A DNA stretch of 64,000 nt, taken from NCBI RefSeq assembly GCF_023149035.1, contig NZ_JAHXMY010000002.1:496001-560000 (forward strand). Reading direction: 5' to 3'. This stretch comes from Microbacterium sp. EYE_78 (lineage in GTDB: Bacteria > Actinomycetota > Actinomycetes > Actinomycetales > Microbacteriaceae). The first letter of the stretch is position 1. Every line of letters starts with the position of its first letter. The notes below the pieces were generated by a model. The model was not told the origin of the DNA, made no database searches, and worked only from the letters and a program-made list of their open reading frames with translations. The translations under genes and the position numbers were made by a program. This document shows, piece after piece, positions 25,342 through 32,212 of this stretch.

Positions 25342-25347
25342 TAATGT
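25342..25347 (+). promoter_or_regulatory. -10 box TAATGT, helicase-like gene
   Basis: TAATGT ends 7 nt before the GTG at 25355. It is the main reason to prefer 25355 among several in-frame GTG codons. Confidence 0.45.
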
Positions 25348-25354
25348 TCTTCGT

Positions 25355-28300
25355 GTGTGGCGAGCAGAGAGCGGTGCTGTGCGCGGCGAGAATCCCGGGC
25401 AGGTGTCCGCGGTGACCCCGGCGGACGTGACGCTCTCCGACCCGGAGGTGCTCGTGATGCACGCAGCCGTCCCCGAGCGCAAGCGCCTGCGGGAGGAGGC
25501 GGCGCAGCTGGGCGGGCCGTCGACCCTGTTGCACTACCGCGATGAGGGCGACGCCGGCATCGACATCACGAAGGCCCACCCCGGCAGCCTGCCGCAGTTC
25601 ATCACCGGGCGTCCGACGCTCCTGTCCAACATGTTCCGCGACGAGGTAGCGCTTCGCACAGCGCGCCTGGCCGCCGAGCGGATCACCTCGAAGGACGTCG
25701 AGCTGCGCACCGCCCGGGGCCTCGACACCGTGCACCTGGCGATCGGGATGGCTTCGTGGCGGATGGGCGGGGTCAGCTGCATGGCCCCGGTCCTGCTGCG
25801 ACCGCTGACGATCCGCCGTCACCATGCCGACTTCGATCTCCGCCTCCACGGGCAGTTCGTCGTCAACCGCGAACTCGTCACCGCCGCGCGCCTGCACTTC
25901 GGGATCGACCTCCACGGCGGAGCGCTCGCCGAGCTCGCCTACGACGGCGGCGTCTTCCAGCCGCAGCCGGTGATCGACCGCCTCCGTGCGCTCACCGCGC
26001 ACATCCCCTCATTCACCGTCCTGCCGCGCCTGATCGTCTCGACCTTCGCCGACGTCGCCTCCGACATGGAACGGGATGCCGTCGACCTCGACCATCCCGT
26101 GCTCAACGCGCTCGCCGGTCACCCCGCCGACCGGGAGCGGGTCTCGTTCGTGCGCCCGCAGCCCGACGCCGTCGGTCCCGACGACCGCACCCCGGCGTCG
26201 GACCGTCTGCTGCTCGACGCCGACGCCGAGCAGGAAGCCGTCCTCGCGCGGATCACCGAGGGGCAGTCGCTCGCGGTGCACACCCTGCCGGGGACCGGGG
26301 GCACCCAGACCGTCATCAACGCCGTCGGCGAACTGGTCCGCTCGGGCAAGCGCGTGCTCGTGGTGAGCGCGCGACGTTCGACACTCGACGGCGTCCGCCA
26401 CCGCCTCGCGGGGATCGGCCTGCCCGGCCTCGCCGTCTCGCCCTCGAGGCTGCACCGCGACCTCATCCGGGCGATCGCGCGCAACGAGAAGGCCGAGGCG
26501 CCCAAGGTCGCCGAGGTCGACGACGCGCTCGTGCGCCTGCGCACGGTCCTGCGCGACTACCGCTCGGCGCTCACGCAGCGCCACGCGAACGTGGGGATCT
26601 CGCCCCTCGAGGCGCTTCGCGAACTCACCCGCATCGCCGAGCACGAGCCGCAGCCGACGGCGACGACGCGCTTCGACCTCGCCACGGTGCAGCGGCTCGC
26701 GACCCGACGGGTCGAGGCCGCGGACGCGCTCGCCGCCTCTGCGCGCCTGGGCGAATTCCGCATCGGACCGGACGACTCGCCCTGGTACGGCGTCGTCTTC
26801 TCGACGACCGACGAGGCGCGCGCCGCGCACGCCCTCGCCGGCCGCCTCCACCGCACCGAGGTGCCGGGGCTCTTCGAACGCGGGTACGAGCTCATCGGGC
26901 AGACGCGGATGCGCCCCTTCGCCACCGTCGCCGAGATGGGCGCGTACGTCCGCCTGCTGCAGGGCATCCGCGCCTCGCTCGACCGGTTCAGCCCCACGGT
27001 GTTCGAGCGCCCGCTCACCGACCTCATCGCGGCGCACTCGTCGCGGCGCGACTCCGCGGCCATGACCAGCGCGAACCGCCGACGGCTGCGTCGCCTGTCG
27101 AAGGAGTACGTCCGCCCCGGCATGCACGTGACCGACATGCACGAGGCGCTCGTGAACGTGCAGAGCCAGCGGACGGAGTGGCAGCGCCTCGTCGAAGCCG
27201 GCGTCACCCCCGAGATCCCCATCGGACTCGACGACGTCGCCGCCGCCTGGCAGCGCGCGAACGCCGATCTCTCCGAGCTCGACCGCGCGCTCGGACGCAC
27301 GGAGCCCCTCGCGTCGCTCCCGATCCCGCAGCTCCTGCGCACGCTCGCGGGTCTTGCCGCGGCATCCGACGTCTTCGACAACCTCGTCGAGCGTGCGTCG
27401 CTGCGCAGCGAGCTCGCCCAGCTCGGCCTCGAGCCGCTGCTGACAGAGCTGTCGACCCGACACGTCCCCGAATCCGACGTCAAGATCGAGTTCGAGTACG
27501 CGTGGTGGCGGTCGGCCCTCGAGGCGATGCTGCGCTCCGACCGCGCCCTGCTCGGCGCGAACACGACCATCCTCGACCGACTCGAGCGCGATTTCCGCCT
27601 CGTCGACGAAGCGCACGCGGCGTCGGCGGGGCCCCTGCTCGCATCGGAGCTCGCGAAGCGGTGGCGCATCGCGATCGTCGACGAACCGCGTGAGGCCGCG
27701 GCGCTCAAGTCCGCCCTGCGCGCCGGCACCGCCTCGGCCGAGGAGCTCGTCGCCTCGGCGCCGACGCTGCTGCGCGTGCTGGCCCCGGTGTGGCTCGCGT
27801 CGCCCTACGAGGTGCCTCACATCCCCGACCACCCCGAGTTCGACGTCGTCGTGGTCGCGGATGCCGCGGCGCTCTGCCTCGCCGAGGCGACGCCCGCGCT
27901 GCGCCGCGCGCGGCAGGTCGTGCTCGTCGGCGACCCGGTGACGCAGAAGCCCACGCCGTTCCGACTGTGGTCGGGTCGCGGCCCGGACGAGGAGGAACCG
28001 GCCCTCCCGTTCGATGAGACGAGCCTCTTCGAGCGCCTCAGCGAACTCATCCCCGTCGAGACGCTCACCCGCAGCTATCGCGCCGGCGGCGAGGACCTGG
28101 CCGAGCTCGTGAACGACGCCTTCTACGGCGGCGCCATCTCGTCGCTGCCCTGGGCGGGCTCGTACCTCGGACGCGGCAGCCTGAGCGTCGACTACGTCGA
28201 GGGCGGCATGGGCGCACCCGATCCCGACACGGGCGCCGTCGAGAGTCCCGACGCCGAGGTGGCTCGGGTCGTGACGCTCGTCGTCGAGCACGCCATCAAC

Positions 28301-29071
28301 CGACCCGCCGAATCGCTCATGGTCGTGACCGCCTCGACCCGGCATGCCGAGCGGATCCGCGCCGCGGTCGCAGCCGCGTTCGCCGGTCGTTCGGACGTCG
28401 CCGACTTCGTGGGTCGCGAGACCGCGGAGCCCTTCGCCGTCCTCGGACTCGAGGAATCCGTCGCCGAGAGCCGCGACCGTGTGATCTTCTCGCTCGGGTT
28501 CGGTCTGACCCGTCACGGCAGGGTGCTGAGCGACTTCGGCGACCTGTCGACCCCCGACGGCGAACGACTGCTGACGGTCGGCATGACCCGAGCGCGCCGA
28601 TCCATGGTGATCGTCTCGTCCATCCGTCCGTCGGCGTTCGACGAGGGACGACTCACGCACGGTGCGGCGACGCTCATGTCGATCCTGGGTCGCATCGCCG
28701 CGCGCGGGCGCGATGCGCGACTCGAGGACCTCGCCGACCCGCTGACACTCGTGCTCGCCCAGCACCTGCGGAGCCTCGGCGTCTCGGTCGACGTGCACTA
28801 CCGCGGCGGCCAACTGCCCCTCGTGGCGCAGTACAAGGGCAAGGCCGTCGTCGCCGACCTCGACCCCGAGAGCGGGCACGAGAGTCTCCGCGAGACCCTC
28901 CGCCGCCGGCCGCAGCTGCTGCGGCGCCTCGGCTGGCACTACGCCCGCGTCCACGCGTTCGACGTCTACAACGACCCCGCCGGTGTCGCATCGCGGATCG
29001 CGGGGATCATCGGCATCCAGCCCGAGACGCCATCCGCCCACGGGTCGACGCAGCCCATCGATGTCGACTGA
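25355..29071 (+). CDS. SF1 helicase-like protein lacking Walker A Lys and Walker B Asp-Glu
   Basis: A 1238-residue protein built like DUF4011-type superfamily 1 helicases. The Walker A site reads PGTGGTQT, with Gly316 in place of the catalytic Lys. Walker B reads VVVVADAAAL (835-838 ADAA) where relatives have DEAS. Later motifs survive: VLVGDPVTQKPT, ETLTRSYR near 905, and LTVGMTRARRSMVIVSS near 1085. The middle (380-790) is helical; the end (from about 1125) resembles a small nuclease-like DNA-binding domain (DVHYRGGQLPLVAQYKGKAVVADLD). It should not hydrolyse ATP normally. Start codon uncertain; in-frame GTGs at 25379, 25403 and 25412 are alternatives. It is divergent from the ATL-like gene. 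Confidence 0.85.
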   Translation: MWRAESGAVRGENPGQVSAVTPADVTLSDPEVLVMHAAVPERKRLREEAAQLGGPSTLLHYRDEGDAGIDITKAHPGSLPQFITGRPTLLSNMFRDEVALRTARLAAERITSKDVELRTARGLDTVHLAIGMASWRMGGVSCMAPVLLRPLTIRRHHADFDLRLHGQFVVNRELVTAARLHFGIDLHGGALAELAYDGGVFQPQPVIDRLRALTAHIPSFTVLPRLIVSTFADVASDMERDAVDLDHPVLNALAGHPADRERVSFVRPQPDAVGPDDRTPASDRLLLDADAEQEAVLARITEGQSLAVHTLPGTGGTQTVINAVGELVRSGKRVLVVSARRSTLDGVRHRLAGIGLPGLAVSPSRLHRDLIRAIARNEKAEAPKVAEVDDALVRLRTVLRDYRSALTQRHANVGISPLEALRELTRIAEHEPQPTATTRFDLATVQRLATRRVEAADALAASARLGEFRIGPDDSPWYGVVFSTTDEARAAHALAGRLHRTEVPGLFERGYELIGQTRMRPFATVAEMGAYVRLLQGIRASLDRFSPTVFERPLTDLIAAHSSRRDSAAMTSANRRRLRRLSKEYVRPGMHVTDMHEALVNVQSQRTEWQRLVEAGVTPEIPIGLDDVAAAWQRANADLSELDRALGRTEPLASLPIPQLLRTLAGLAAASDVFDNLVERASLRSELAQLGLEPLLTELSTRHVPESDVKIEFEYAWWRSALEAMLRSDRALLGANTTILDRLERDFRLVDEAHAASAGPLLASELAKRWRIAIVDEPREAAALKSALRAGTASAEELVASAPTLLRVLAPVWLASPYEVPHIPDHPEFDVVVVADAAALCLAEATPALRRARQVVLVGDPVTQKPTPFRLWSGRGPDEEEPALPFDETSLFERLSELIPVETLTRSYRAGGEDLAELVNDAFYGGAISSLPWAGSYLGRGSLSVDYVEGGMGAPDPDTGAVESPDAEVARVVTLVVEHAINRPAESLMVVTASTRHAERIRAAVAAAFAGRSDVADFVGRETAEPFAVLGLEESVAESRDRVIFSLGFGLTRHGRVLSDFGDLSTPDGERLLTVGMTRARRSMVIVSSIRPSAFDEGRLTHGAATLMSILGRIAARGRDARLEDLADPLTLVLAQHLRSLGVSVDVHYRGGQLPLVAQYKGKAVVADLDPESGHESLRETLRRRPQLLRRLGWHYARVHAFDVYNDPAGVASRIAGIIGIQPETPSAHGSTQPIDVD

Positions 29072-29243: not shown

Positions 29244-29696
29244 TCAGATGGACGGCGACGGCGGCGTCGTGGGCGACGGCGTGTTCGTCGGGCGCTGGCT
29301 CTCGAGGAGGTCGCGGATCTGGACCAGCAGCTCCGCCTCGGTCGGGAGCTTCGCCTCGGGCTCTTCGGCCACGCCCGCGCGTGCAGCCTGGCGTTCCTTC
29401 CATTTGTTCATCGGCATGACGAATGCGAAGTAGACGACCAGTGCGACCGCGAAGAAGCTGATGATCGCGGTGAGCAGACCGCTCAGCGGGAAGGTGACCT
29501 CCTGGCCGTAGATGCCGGTCAACGTCGGTCCGGACTCGCCGTTTTCGTTCGGGATGTAGAACAGGCCGATCAGCGGAGTGATGAGGCTGTCGACGATCGC
29601 GGTGACGATCGCCGTGAACGCGCCGCCGATGACGACCGCGACCGCGAGGTCGATGACGTTGCCCCGCATGATGAAGTCTTTGAAGCCCTGGATCAC
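29244..29696 (-). CDS. mscL: Large-conductance mechanosensitive channel MscL
   Basis: A 150-residue channel subunit. The family N-terminus [23 protein letters not shown] contains the pore-lining first helix; the second helix ([21 protein letters not shown]) is near residue 72 and is followed by the cytoplasmic bundle. The extracellular loop (45-65) has [12 protein letters not shown]. The GTG at 29696 is chosen because GGAAGGAG lies 5 nt upstream and it matches the family start. The C-terminal tail is Pro/Thr-rich and longer than usual. It acts as an osmotic safety valve. Confidence 0.95.
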
Positions 29697-29731
29697 GGCT
29701 GCTCCTTCCTCTGCCGGCACGCGGCCGGACG

Positions 29732-30001
29732 CTATCCCGCGGAGGCGGGCGAAGCGGACGCTTCGGATTTCTTCGATGATGTCGAAGAACCCGAGCTCTC
29801 GCCAGAGGAGGAGCCACCGCTGGTGCCGCGTGAATCCGTGCGGTAGAAGCCGGAGCCGTTGAACGTCACACCGATCGAGCCATACTGCTTGCGGATCGCA
29901 CCGCCGCATTCGGGGCACTCGGTGAGCGCGGCGTCGGAGAAGGACTGGACGGCGTCGAAACGGTGGCCGCACTGCGTGCAGGCATAGGCGTAGGTGGGCA
30001 T
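29732..30001 (-). CDS. FmdB-type zinc-ribbon protein
   Basis: An 89-residue protein. It starts [21 protein letters not shown] and has a second pair CPECGG, the CxxC...CxxC zinc ribbon of the FmdB/CxxC_CxxC_SSSS family. From about 55 on it is Ser/Gly-rich, typical of that family name. It lies 14 nt after 5-FTHF cyclo-ligase and before mscL on the same strand, an arrangement common in actinobacteria. Its role is not established. Confidence 0.92.
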
Positions 30002-30015
30002 GGGACCTCGATGGA

Positions 30016-30606
30016 TCAGCGAGCGGGAAGGGTGAGCGTGCGGGTGGGGGTCACGACCCCCGAGACGGGCTGATCGTGCAGGTCGCGCGGGACCTCGTCG
30101 AGCAGTTCGGAGTCGAAGATGACGGCGTAGACCGGGGGGCACTTCTCCATCGACCCGATCGTCTTGTCGAAGTAACCGCGGCCCCAGCCCAACCGCATCC
30201 CGGTCCGGTCGACGGCGGCGGCGGGGATGACGAGCAGGTCGACGTCGTTCACCGCGACGGGGCTCAACAGCTCGCCGACGGGCTCGGGGAGTCCGAACAT
30301 CCCCTCCGCGGTGAGGCCCTCGTCCTCGGCGACCGCCCAGTCGAGCAGCCCGTCCGCACGTGTGACCGGCAGAAGGACCCGGATGCCGCGCGCCACCGCG
30401 GCGGCGATGAACTCCCGCGTGCCGGGCTCGGTCGTCGTCGACAGGAAGCAGGACATCGAGCGCACGGCGTGCTCATGCACCAGCCGGTCGAGCTGCGCCT
30501 GCACGCCGGCAGCGGCCTCTTCGAGCGATGCGGCGGAACGCTGCTGTCGACGTTCGCGGAGTTCGGCGCGAAGGGCACGCTTCTCGGAGTCGAGGGTGCC
30601 GTTCAT
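30016..30606 (-). CDS. 5-formyltetrahydrofolate cyclo-ligase
   Basis: A 196-residue enzyme that converts 5-formyl-THF to 5,10-methenyl-THF with ATP. Motifs are [14 protein letters not shown] at the N-terminus, [25 protein letters not shown] near residue 125 (the ATP/metal site GxGRGYFD), and the C-terminal [16 protein letters not shown]. Length is standard. It is divergent from galU across 78 nt, each with its own leaderless-type -10 box. Confidence 0.95.
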
Positions 30607-30612
30607 GGTCCG

Positions 30613-30618
30613 ATTGTA
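30613..30618 (-). promoter_or_regulatory. -10 box TACAAT, leaderless cyclo-ligase promoter
   Basis: On the minus strand TACAAT ends 6 nt before the ATG at 30606; this is one of the best matches to the consensus in the window. Confidence 0.55.
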
Positions 30619-30671
30619 AAGGGACGCGGCCACCCGGCCGGTCGCGTCATCTGCAGGACACGCGTCATCGG

Positions 30672-30677
30672 TATGGT
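30672..30677 (+). promoter_or_regulatory. -10 box TATGGT, galU promoter
   Basis: TATGGT ends 7 nt before the ATG at 30685. It overlaps the upstream ATG at 30673, which it argues against. Confidence 0.5.
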
Positions 30678-30684
30678 GAGCATC

Positions 30685-31560
30685 ATGTCTCAGCGCATCA
30701 AGGCCGTCATCCCTGCCGCGGGTCTCGGGACCCGCTTCCTCCCCGCCACCAAAGCCATGCCGAAGGAAATGCTGCCGGTCGTCGACAAGCCGGCGATCCA
30801 GTACGTCGTGGAAGAGGCGGTCTCGGCCGGCATCGACGACGTCCTCATCATCCTGGGGCGCAACAAGAACAACATCTCGAACCACTTCGACTCGGTCCCC
30901 GAGCTCGAGACGAACCTCGCCAAGAAGGGCGACCACGAGAAGCTCAAGCGGGTGCAGGACTCGTCGGACATGGCCGACATCCACTTCGTCCGCCAGGGCG
31001 AGCCGAAGGGCCTCGGCCACGCCGTGCTCCGTGCCCGCTCGCACGTCGGCGACAGCACCTTCGCGGTCCTCCTCGGCGACGACCTGATCGACGCGCGCGA
31101 CGTCCTGCTCGAGAAGATGCTCGAGCAGAACCAGAGCACGGGCCTGACCGTGATCGCGCTCATGGAGGTCTCCCCGGACCAGATCCACATGTACGGGGCG
31201 GCCGCGGTCGAGGCGACCGATGACCCGGACGTCGTCAAGGTCACGGGCCTCGTCGAGAAGCCGAAGAAGGAGGATGCGCCCTCCAACTACGCCGTCATCG
31301 GTCGCTACGTCCTCACCCCGGGCGTCTTCGACATCCTCGAGCGCACCGAACCGGGCAAGGGCGGCGAGATCCAGCTGACGGACGCGCTGCAGGAGCTCTC
31401 CTCGACCGAGGGCGTGCTCGGCGTGGTGTTCCGGGGCCGTCGCTACGACACCGGTGACCGCGCGGACTACATCAAGGCGATCGTCCAGCTCGCCGTCGAC
31501 CGCGACGACCTCGGCACCGAGCTCCGGCCCTGGCTGAAGGACTTCGCATCCGGCCTGTGA
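30685..31560 (+). CDS. galU: UTP-glucose-1-phosphate uridylyltransferase GalU
   Basis: A 291-residue nucleotidyltransferase making UDP-glucose for cell-wall glycans and storage sugars. The signature AVIPAAGLGTRFLPATKAMPKEMLPVVDKP spans residues 7-36, and the active site continues with QGEPKGLGHAVL near 111, LLGDDLID near 135 and VTGLVEKP near 190. ATG at 30685 (MSQRIKAV) is chosen over the ATG at 30673 because of the -10 position. Its end lies 16 nt from the acetyltransferase gene, so the two are probably co-transcribed. Confidence 0.96.
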   Translation: MSQRIKAVIPAAGLGTRFLPATKAMPKEMLPVVDKPAIQYVVEEAVSAGIDDVLIILGRNKNNISNHFDSVPELETNLAKKGDHEKLKRVQDSSDMADIHFVRQGEPKGLGHAVLRARSHVGDSTFAVLLGDDLIDARDVLLEKMLEQNQSTGLTVIALMEVSPDQIHMYGAAAVEATDDPDVVKVTGLVEKPKKEDAPSNYAVIGRYVLTPGVFDILERTEPGKGGEIQLTDALQELSSTEGVLGVVFRGRRYDTGDRADYIKAIVQLAVDRDDLGTELRPWLKDFASGL

Positions 31561-31576
31561 GCCCGGTGACGCGCTG

Positions 31577-32212
31577 ATGGGCATGGACGGGACGATCGTG
31601 CGGGCGCACGGTCCGGTCTCGATCCGGCTCGTGCGCCCGCGCGACGCGAAGGCACTCCAGACGGAGCTGATGGACAACCGGGGTTGGCTGCGGCGCTGGG
31701 AGGCGACCAGCCCCGACGGCCCGGTGTCGATGGACATGCGCAGCGGTGTGCGCAGGCTCCTGCAGCAGTACCGCGACGGCACCGGTGTGCCCTTCGTCAT
31801 GGAGTACGACGGCGAGGTCGCCGGCCAGCTGAACGTGTGGGGGATCGCCCGCGGGTCGCTCGCCTCGGCGACGATCGGCTACTGGGTGAGCGAACGCTTC
31901 GCGGGCCGGGGCATCACGCCGACATCGGTGGCCATGGCGACGGACGTGTGCTTCGAGGAGCTGCGGCTGCACCGGATGGAGATCTGCATCCGGCCGGAGA
32001 ACACGAAGAGTCTGCGCGTGGTCGAGAAGCTCGGGTTCCGTTACGAGGGCCTGCGTCGGCGCTACATCCACATCGACGGGGACTGGCGCGACCACTACGC
32101 CTTCGCGCTCGTCCGCGAAGACGTGCCCGAGGGCGTGCTGAACCGCTGGACCGGCGGTCGCGTGCCGCCGGACGCGGCATCCATCCCTCCCGCCGACCGT
32201 CGCGACGGCTGA
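31577..32212 (+). CDS. RimJ/RimL-type GNAT acetyltransferase
   Basis: A 211-residue GNAT enzyme. The acetyl-CoA site lies in IGYWVSERFAGRGITPTSVAM (about 96-116) with the R-G-R-G-I pattern, and HRMEICIRPENTKSLRVVEKLGFRYEG follows, the standard C-terminal GNAT half. It is placed between galU and the GlpR-like gene; in Mycobacterium and Corynebacterium the corresponding rimJ sits in the same block. The acceptor substrate is unknown. Confidence 0.92.
   Translation: MGMDGTIVRAHGPVSIRLVRPRDAKALQTELMDNRGWLRRWEATSPDGPVSMDMRSGVRRLLQQYRDGTGVPFVMEYDGEVAGQLNVWGIARGSLASATIGYWVSERFAGRGITPTSVAMATDVCFEELRLHRMEICIRPENTKSLRVVEKLGFRYEGLRRRYIHIDGDWRDHYAFALVREDVPEGVLNRWTGGRVPPDAASIPPADRRDG

Follow-up and report, generated by a model that had tools for sequence, protein, structure and literature searches.

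A putative ancient pseudo-helicase-nuclease, a candidate ATP-independent nucleic-acid-binding scaffold, encoded by a core gene of the Microbacterium order

The gene and its predicted protein

The 64,000-nucleotide stretch analysed here (the window; contig NZ_JAHXMY010000002.1 of Microbacterium sp. EYE_78, positions 496,001 to 560,000, forward strand) contains a long gene, referred to below as the pseudo-helicase-nuclease gene, whose product resembles superfamily 1 (SF1) helicases with a C-terminal nuclease, and in which the catalytic centres of both parts are damaged. The gene and its features are as follows (window positions):

25355..29071, + strand: pseudo-helicase-nuclease gene, 1,238 amino acids, GTG start
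25697..25876, + strand: DUF4011-like N-terminal stretch, residues 115-174 (Pfam PF13195, E 0.0039, 17.6 bits, cut-off 22.2)
26288..26311, + strand: pseudo-Walker A PGTGGTQT, residues 312-319 (Gly316 codon 26300-26302)
26945..27274, + strand: helical middle region with conserved arginines, residues 531-640, mostly helical in the model
27857..27868, + strand: pseudo-Walker B ADAA, A835-D836-A837-A838 (DEAS in live relatives, i.e., those with intact motifs)
27929..27952, + strand: motif III GDPVTQKP, residues 859-866, kept
28586..28600, + strand: motif VI arginines TRARR, residues 1078-1082, invariant in 35 of 35 same-genus rows
28742..29020, + strand: MTES_1575-type (Vsr-like) nuclease region (PF18741, 20.3 bits, cut-off 38.2)

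The frame consists of 1,238 open codons and is frameshift-free, in agreement with the initial annotation of this DNA; "giant", as the product was called there, is generous for a protein of this size. A search of the genome with the window protein gave one match. Its nearest relative among the matches listed is a Microbacterium oleivorans protein (92% identity) that carries the source label "DEAD/DEAH box helicase". The AlphaFold model shows an intact Upf1-like SF1 fold (predicted local distance difference test, pLDDT, 91), with two RecA-like domains predicted to lie in the SF1B arrangement, and its top structural matches are helicases, several of them solved with RNA or DNA. In the structure comparison the window protein is 15-19% identical to the SF1B proteins IGHMBP2/SMUBP-2, Dna2, Senataxin and Upf1, all of which hydrolyse ATP and have undamaged Walker motifs. 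Hidden Markov model searches, proposed initially, did return DUF4011, AAA_11 and AAA_12, each of them below its Pfam cut-off (AAA_11, 22.1 bits, and AAA_12, 21.9 bits, against 27 for both). The PF13195 cut-off is passed by the live relative L034 and by L033 of family f7 (L, G and f numbers denote loci, genomes and families), and some close relatives among the matches listed bear precomputed MTES_1575 or AAA_12 labels.

State of the ATPase and nuclease centres

At the Walker A position the window protein has Gly316 in place of the lysine found in SMUBP-2 (structure 4b3f) and in live orthologues (PGTGGTQT versus PGTGKTTT or PGTGKSQT), as had been read from the codon initially. None of the eight residues of PGTGGTQT varies among the 35 same-genus rows, in which three of the four synonymous glycine codons are used at position 316; since the residue is invariant while its codon varies, selection keeps the glycine. 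A family alignment was made of 121 rows, 35 from Microbacterium and 86 from other genera of Microbacteriaceae, with three rows gapped at the lysine column. L001 (the window again), the second fragments L083-L089, L062 and L063 (no match) and the short G180 piece were omitted from the table; L158-L168 repeat earlier genomes, and the same-genus genome G016 (split gene) and further same-genus loci are not included. Close relatives were thereby checked for intact motifs, and lysine was found in none of the 118 rows that have a residue at this column, where glycine occurs 89 times, alanine 11, leucine and serine four times each, valine and tyrosine three times each, isoleucine twice, and threonine and arginine (L100) once each. 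Chance or a sequencing error as the source of Gly316 is excluded by the invariance in the genus and by this absence of lysine from the family.

The Walker B motif had been described as destroyed. This is correct for its aspartate, which is replaced by Ala835; the glutamate position is still acidic (Asp836), so the motif is half lost rather than erased. Throughout the family the aspartate is found in none of 120 rows with a residue at its column, and the glutamate column holds aspartate in 119 of 121. A DEAH sequence at residues 751-754 falls outside motif II, and a pattern search of the whole protein for a second P-loop, and thus for an intact ATP site elsewhere, retrieved no other GK[ST] or A/GxxxxGK[ST]. 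Motif III and TRARR are indeed present, so that the GDxxQ sequence and the motif VI arginine of SF1 helicases are kept. An active SF1 helicase is ruled out by the motifs, the Walker A lysine and the Walker B Asp-Glu pair both being missing. As both Walker residues are lost in every readable family row, the window protein would be non-hydrolysing, which upholds the initial proposal.

The C-terminal nuclease, overlooked at that stage, appears to be a third damaged centre. Live rows read IDLAV...ExD; in the window protein the first aspartate is Pro1155, the glutamate is Asp1168, and Asp1170 is kept. The first acidic column is aspartate in one of 121 family rows, and the first residue of the second acidic pair (ExD; Asp1168-Leu-Asp1170 in the window) is glutamate in 100 and aspartate in 19. 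Elsewhere, the nuclease aspartate and glutamate are kept despite lost Walker sites in three of four rows of f7 (L033, L217 and L219), five of nine of f6 (L031, L032 and L210-L212), two of five of f16 (L238 and L241) and one of two of f15 (L237). Such rows possibly represent an ATP-free nuclease stage, and since nuclease residues are kept where Walker sites are gone, the ATPase site was presumably lost first in those lines.

Spread, locus and history of the loss

The gene is present in 197 of 199 Microbacteriaceae genomes and in 85 of 85 genera, the two misses being 82% and 94% complete. In a survey of the order, 197 of 198 genomes and every one of 69 genera had it, with a 580-contig assembly as the sole miss, and it is retained in genomes of 0.8-0.9 Mb (G072, G509 and G613). 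The ratio of nonsynonymous to synonymous substitutions (dN/dS), whose determination for the ATPase core had been suggested, is 0.03-0.07 within Microbacterium, dead core included, which shows strong purifying selection in the genus. An internal stop was seen in one family genome (G238) among the matches listed. A decaying pseudogene is ruled out by dN/dS, open frames and near-universal presence; together with the conserved place and the confident predicted fold, these observations bear out the view that the gene is kept.

In a sample of the class, 60 of 246 genomes gave a match at E 1e-20 or better, 26 inside the order and 34 outside. Full-length matches outside the order, among those listed, came from f35, f39, f33 and f25, and most others were pieces of larger proteins. 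A mobile defence gene was rejected on the basis of a plasmid search, in which 325 of 72,556 records matched, all at less than 60% identity. A single match reached 80% coverage of the query; it is a relative labelled DNA helicase, 30% identical over 82% of the query, on a 415-kb replicon of Actinomyces oris that is recorded as a plasmid (NZ_CP116225.1).

The surroundings of the gene in the window are as follows:

25342..25347, + strand: TAATGT, a -10-like box 7 bases before the GTG
29244..29972, - strand: mscL neighbour, convergent (Pfam PF01741; MscL domain at amino acids 94-224)
29732..30142, - strand: FmdB-like zinc-ribbon neighbour, conserved, which we take to be fmdB
30016..31800, - strand: open reading frame (ORF) with a 5-formyltetrahydrofolate cyclo-ligase domain (amino acids 407-585, Pfam PF01812)
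30076..31560, + strand: ORF with a nucleotidyl transferase domain (amino acids 209-471, Pfam PF00483), a conserved neighbour, presumably galU

The usual setting of the gene is convergent to mscL and near fmdB, the folate cyclo-ligase gene, galU and a GNAT gene. Among 69 family loci with flanks, mscL was found at 58, fmdB at 61, and at least one of mscL, fmdB and the cyclo-ligase ORF at 66. Outside the family, mscL or fmdB lies beside the gene at 53 of 63 order loci; the ten without them include all four f12 loci and two cut by contig ends. All eight live loci with flanks (L161, L162, L163 and L242-L246) adjoin mscL and fmdB, and each of their genomes gave one match (three candidates were scored per genome). 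Since they share this place, the live genes of the order are positional orthologues of the dead ones. Beyond the order, mscL or fmdB accompanies five of five f35 loci, whereas all five neighbour genes are missing around the rows of f33, f39 and f25, one row each.

A TANNNT box lies 12-13 bases upstream of the start in 27 of 30 scored loci (the pattern gave a start in 30 of 34 same-genus loci, and the count was made without a shuffled control), which suggests a leaderless transcript across the genus. An antisense open frame of 1,010 codons (26009-29041, - strand) lies inside the pseudo-helicase-nuclease gene and is probably a by-product of the high G+C content (70-74%).

Intact motifs were found in distant members of the order. 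Of its 76 rows outside the family, nine keep the lysine and the Asp-Glu pair and 67, one of them gapped at the lysine, do not; the nine are both rows of f5 and seven of the ten of f18. Protein matches to the f5 protein came from Angustibacter and, at about 60% identity, from Dermatophilaceae (Pedococcus, Phycicoccus and Oryzihumus), and the whole motif set is lost in the rows of Bifidobacteriaceae (f4) and Cellulomonadaceae (f9); these four assignments follow from how the nearest protein or contig matches are named, and in the rows with the strongest decay (f4 and others) the P-loop alignment is uncertain by a few residues. A scan of named genomes found the lysine in none of 80 loci taken from 452. 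Outside the order, arginine replaces the Walker A lysine in five of five f35 rows (L252-L256) and in one f25 row.

The history of the loss was followed in gene trees only. In a FastTree tree of 108 rows with the motif columns removed (L039 and L044 left out), 84 dead order rows, 22 of them from Microbacteriaceae, formed one group with support 100 beside f5 and f18. A quick IQ-TREE tree (LG+G4) of 40 rows of this set gave the same split for 22 dead rows with support 99, its deepest split being weak (support 53); the 40 rows and the dead and live sets were picked by hand from 110 aligned rows. The fewest changes of state were four in the larger tree and three in the smaller one. A single loss for all dead rows is disfavoured, as the approximately unbiased (AU) test of one clade of all 29 dead rows in the 40-row tree gave p 0.016; one clade for the 25 dead order rows was not rejected (AU p 0.061). 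Most likely, one early loss took place at the base of most of the order and a later one inside f18, and the Lys-to-Arg changes outside the order are most likely separate from the order's loss. Angustibacter and Dermatophilaceae have positional orthologues whose motifs are intact, which makes an active ancestor most likely. With intact motifs confined to such distant orthologues, the claim made for the window protein stands.

Possible roles of the protein

Families that have lost every one of the motifs still keep the gene, so ATP hydrolysis is probably not required for its common role. Where decay has gone furthest, conservation has shifted away from the ATPase motifs. Mean pairwise identity of the middle region is 0.46 among 16 fully dead rows versus 0.45 among 11 live rows, both sets picked by hand, and R565, R575, R576 and R587 are invariant or nearly so in the 16 fully dead rows. 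The kept fold, these arginines and the kinds of structural relatives of the model favour an ATP-independent clamp or reader of nucleic acid. We therefore lean, with modest confidence, towards an ancient pseudo-helicase-nuclease, a core gene of the order, whose product would serve as an ATP-independent nucleic-acid-binding scaffold; the structural or nucleic-acid-binding role offered initially may thus be correct. The ancestor would have unwound and cut nucleic acid, ATP turnover would have been lost early in the order, and the nuclease site later, in some lines. The pair of RecA-like domains, together with the helical middle region, would have persisted to clamp or read single-stranded nucleic acid or, alternatively, to offer an active partner a docking surface.

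Pseudo-helicases such as AddB, RecC and, as far as the partial source goes, yeast Utp25 are subunits of one complex. In AddB and RecC the inactivated SF1 domains have few or none of the motor motifs left and scan single-stranded DNA, according to the part of the source at hand (PMC4824097). This reuse of a helicase fold without motor motifs offers what may be the best analogy for the working of the window protein, although AddB is UvrD-like in the same partial source and the window protein best matches Upf1-like folds. Filing it as RecC was rejected, as it has no match to Pfam PF04257 (Exonuc_V_gamma); this domain is absent from the genome of the window (G000) and present in five of the 38 genomes searched, and no recB, recD or addA was seen among the scanned neighbours of the gene.

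Several points weigh against a nucleic-acid scaffold. A scaffold for proteins alone would leave the same traces and fits nearly as well as the putative nucleic-acid-binding one. The nuclease region is still well conserved (identity 0.45 in the same fully dead versus 0.51 in the live rows, sets of differing divergence), and a residual nuclease-related role is therefore possible. The Q-motif glutamine, P-loop glycines, GDxxQ and motif VI arginine are mostly kept in Microbacteriaceae, so that nucleotide binding without turnover is possible as well. No operon partner was found at the locus; the steady neighbour mscL is usually convergent and therefore not co-transcribed with the gene. Finally, the main text of a Bifidobacterium breve transposon-directed insertion site sequencing (TraDIS) paper, as far as available, does not name the gene and has the word "helicase" zero times (PMC5514069).

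A purely structural protein scaffold, in which the helicase fold holds a complex together with no contact to nucleic acid, is accordingly the alternative to be taken most seriously, though we consider it unlikely: in its favour, the best-kept parts of fully dead families, whose ATPase motifs are lost, are the middle region, portions of the N-terminal domain and the nuclease region, but the invariant or near-invariant arginines and the nucleic-acid-bound helicases among the best structural matches speak against it. Still less probable is a switch or sensor of Microbacteriaceae that binds nucleotide and does not hydrolyse it. The PGTGGTQT backbone, with its invariance in the genus, and the Q-motif glutamine, GDPxxQ and TRARR kept there would suit such a protein, but the lysine and the Walker B aspartate are gone, and Bifidobacteriaceae, Cellulomonadaceae and other families keep the gene without any of the motifs, which makes it unlikely that the shared role needs a nucleotide. 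An unusual active ATPase with substitute residues is hardly credible. Arginine stands for lysine in the f35 rows, the f25 row and L100, and the Walker B glutamate position remains acidic in nearly the whole family; against this, the lysine has otherwise given way in the order to Gly, Ala, Leu, Ser, Val, Tyr, Gln and more, without a basic residue as a common substitute, and the window protein has no other P-loop.

Anti-phage defence of the PDC-S37, ProA or Hhe kind is suggested by library scores: the window protein reaches 295 bits for PADLOC PDC-S37, 121 bits for Hhe and 315 bits for NCBIfam ProA, and the live L034 reaches 811 bits for PDC-S37. It aligns with these DUF4011 helicase-nucleases (ProA, NF058533) over the helicase and nuclease parts, but it is shorter, its catalytic residues are lost, and its scores come nowhere near the NCBIfam cut-offs of 1,500 bits for ProA and 2,000 bits for Hhe. 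Filing as ProA was rejected on its 314.7 of 1,500 bits. Unlike a patchy defence island, the gene is near-universal and an order-wide core gene, occupies mostly one housekeeping locus and is kept in the smallest genomes mentioned above; with the helicase and nuclease centres damaged as well, we regard a defence function as very improbable. MTES_1575 of Microbacterium testaceum, the namesake of the Vsr-like nuclease domain, is an SF1 helicase with a Vsr restriction endonuclease and, in the part of the source at hand, has more than 2,000 residues with HEPN, transglutaminase and winged-helix parts (Anantharaman et al. 2013, PMC3710099), as opposed to the 1,238 residues of the window protein. Some genomes also contain relatives of about 2,000 residues (L058, L059, L060 and L061) that belong to the large MTES_1575/Hhe kind and have GKSQT, DEAS and VTRAR undamaged; such L058-like proteins appear to resemble MTES_1575 more than the window protein does. 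Among the matches listed in searches of the literature on anti-phage ProA, DUF4011, MTES_1575, PDC-S37, pseudohelicases and signature proteins, no title or abstract opening describes the present family.

The motifs do not support the record names "helicase" or "AAA family ATPase" for this gene. A defence-gene library scores a core gene of the order as a phage-defence candidate (P0001, L034, L033, L048 and L207 at 172-811 bits with PADLOC PDC-S37) and is thus a likely source of false defence calls. Returning to the ATP-independent scaffold, we tentatively propose, as one possibility, a so far unrecognised genome-maintenance or RNA factor common to the order of Microbacterium, Bifidobacterium and Cellulomonas, ATP-dead at the base of most of it and still dying in one family, which may read or clamp nucleic acid without fuel and steer an active partner. 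Nearly every sampled genome of the order keeps this gene of about 3.6 kb, mostly at one locus, although in most lineages it encodes a damaged enzyme, and the intact orthologues of sister lineages at the same locus provide a ready-made comparison of dead and live forms of a helicase fold that does without ATP.

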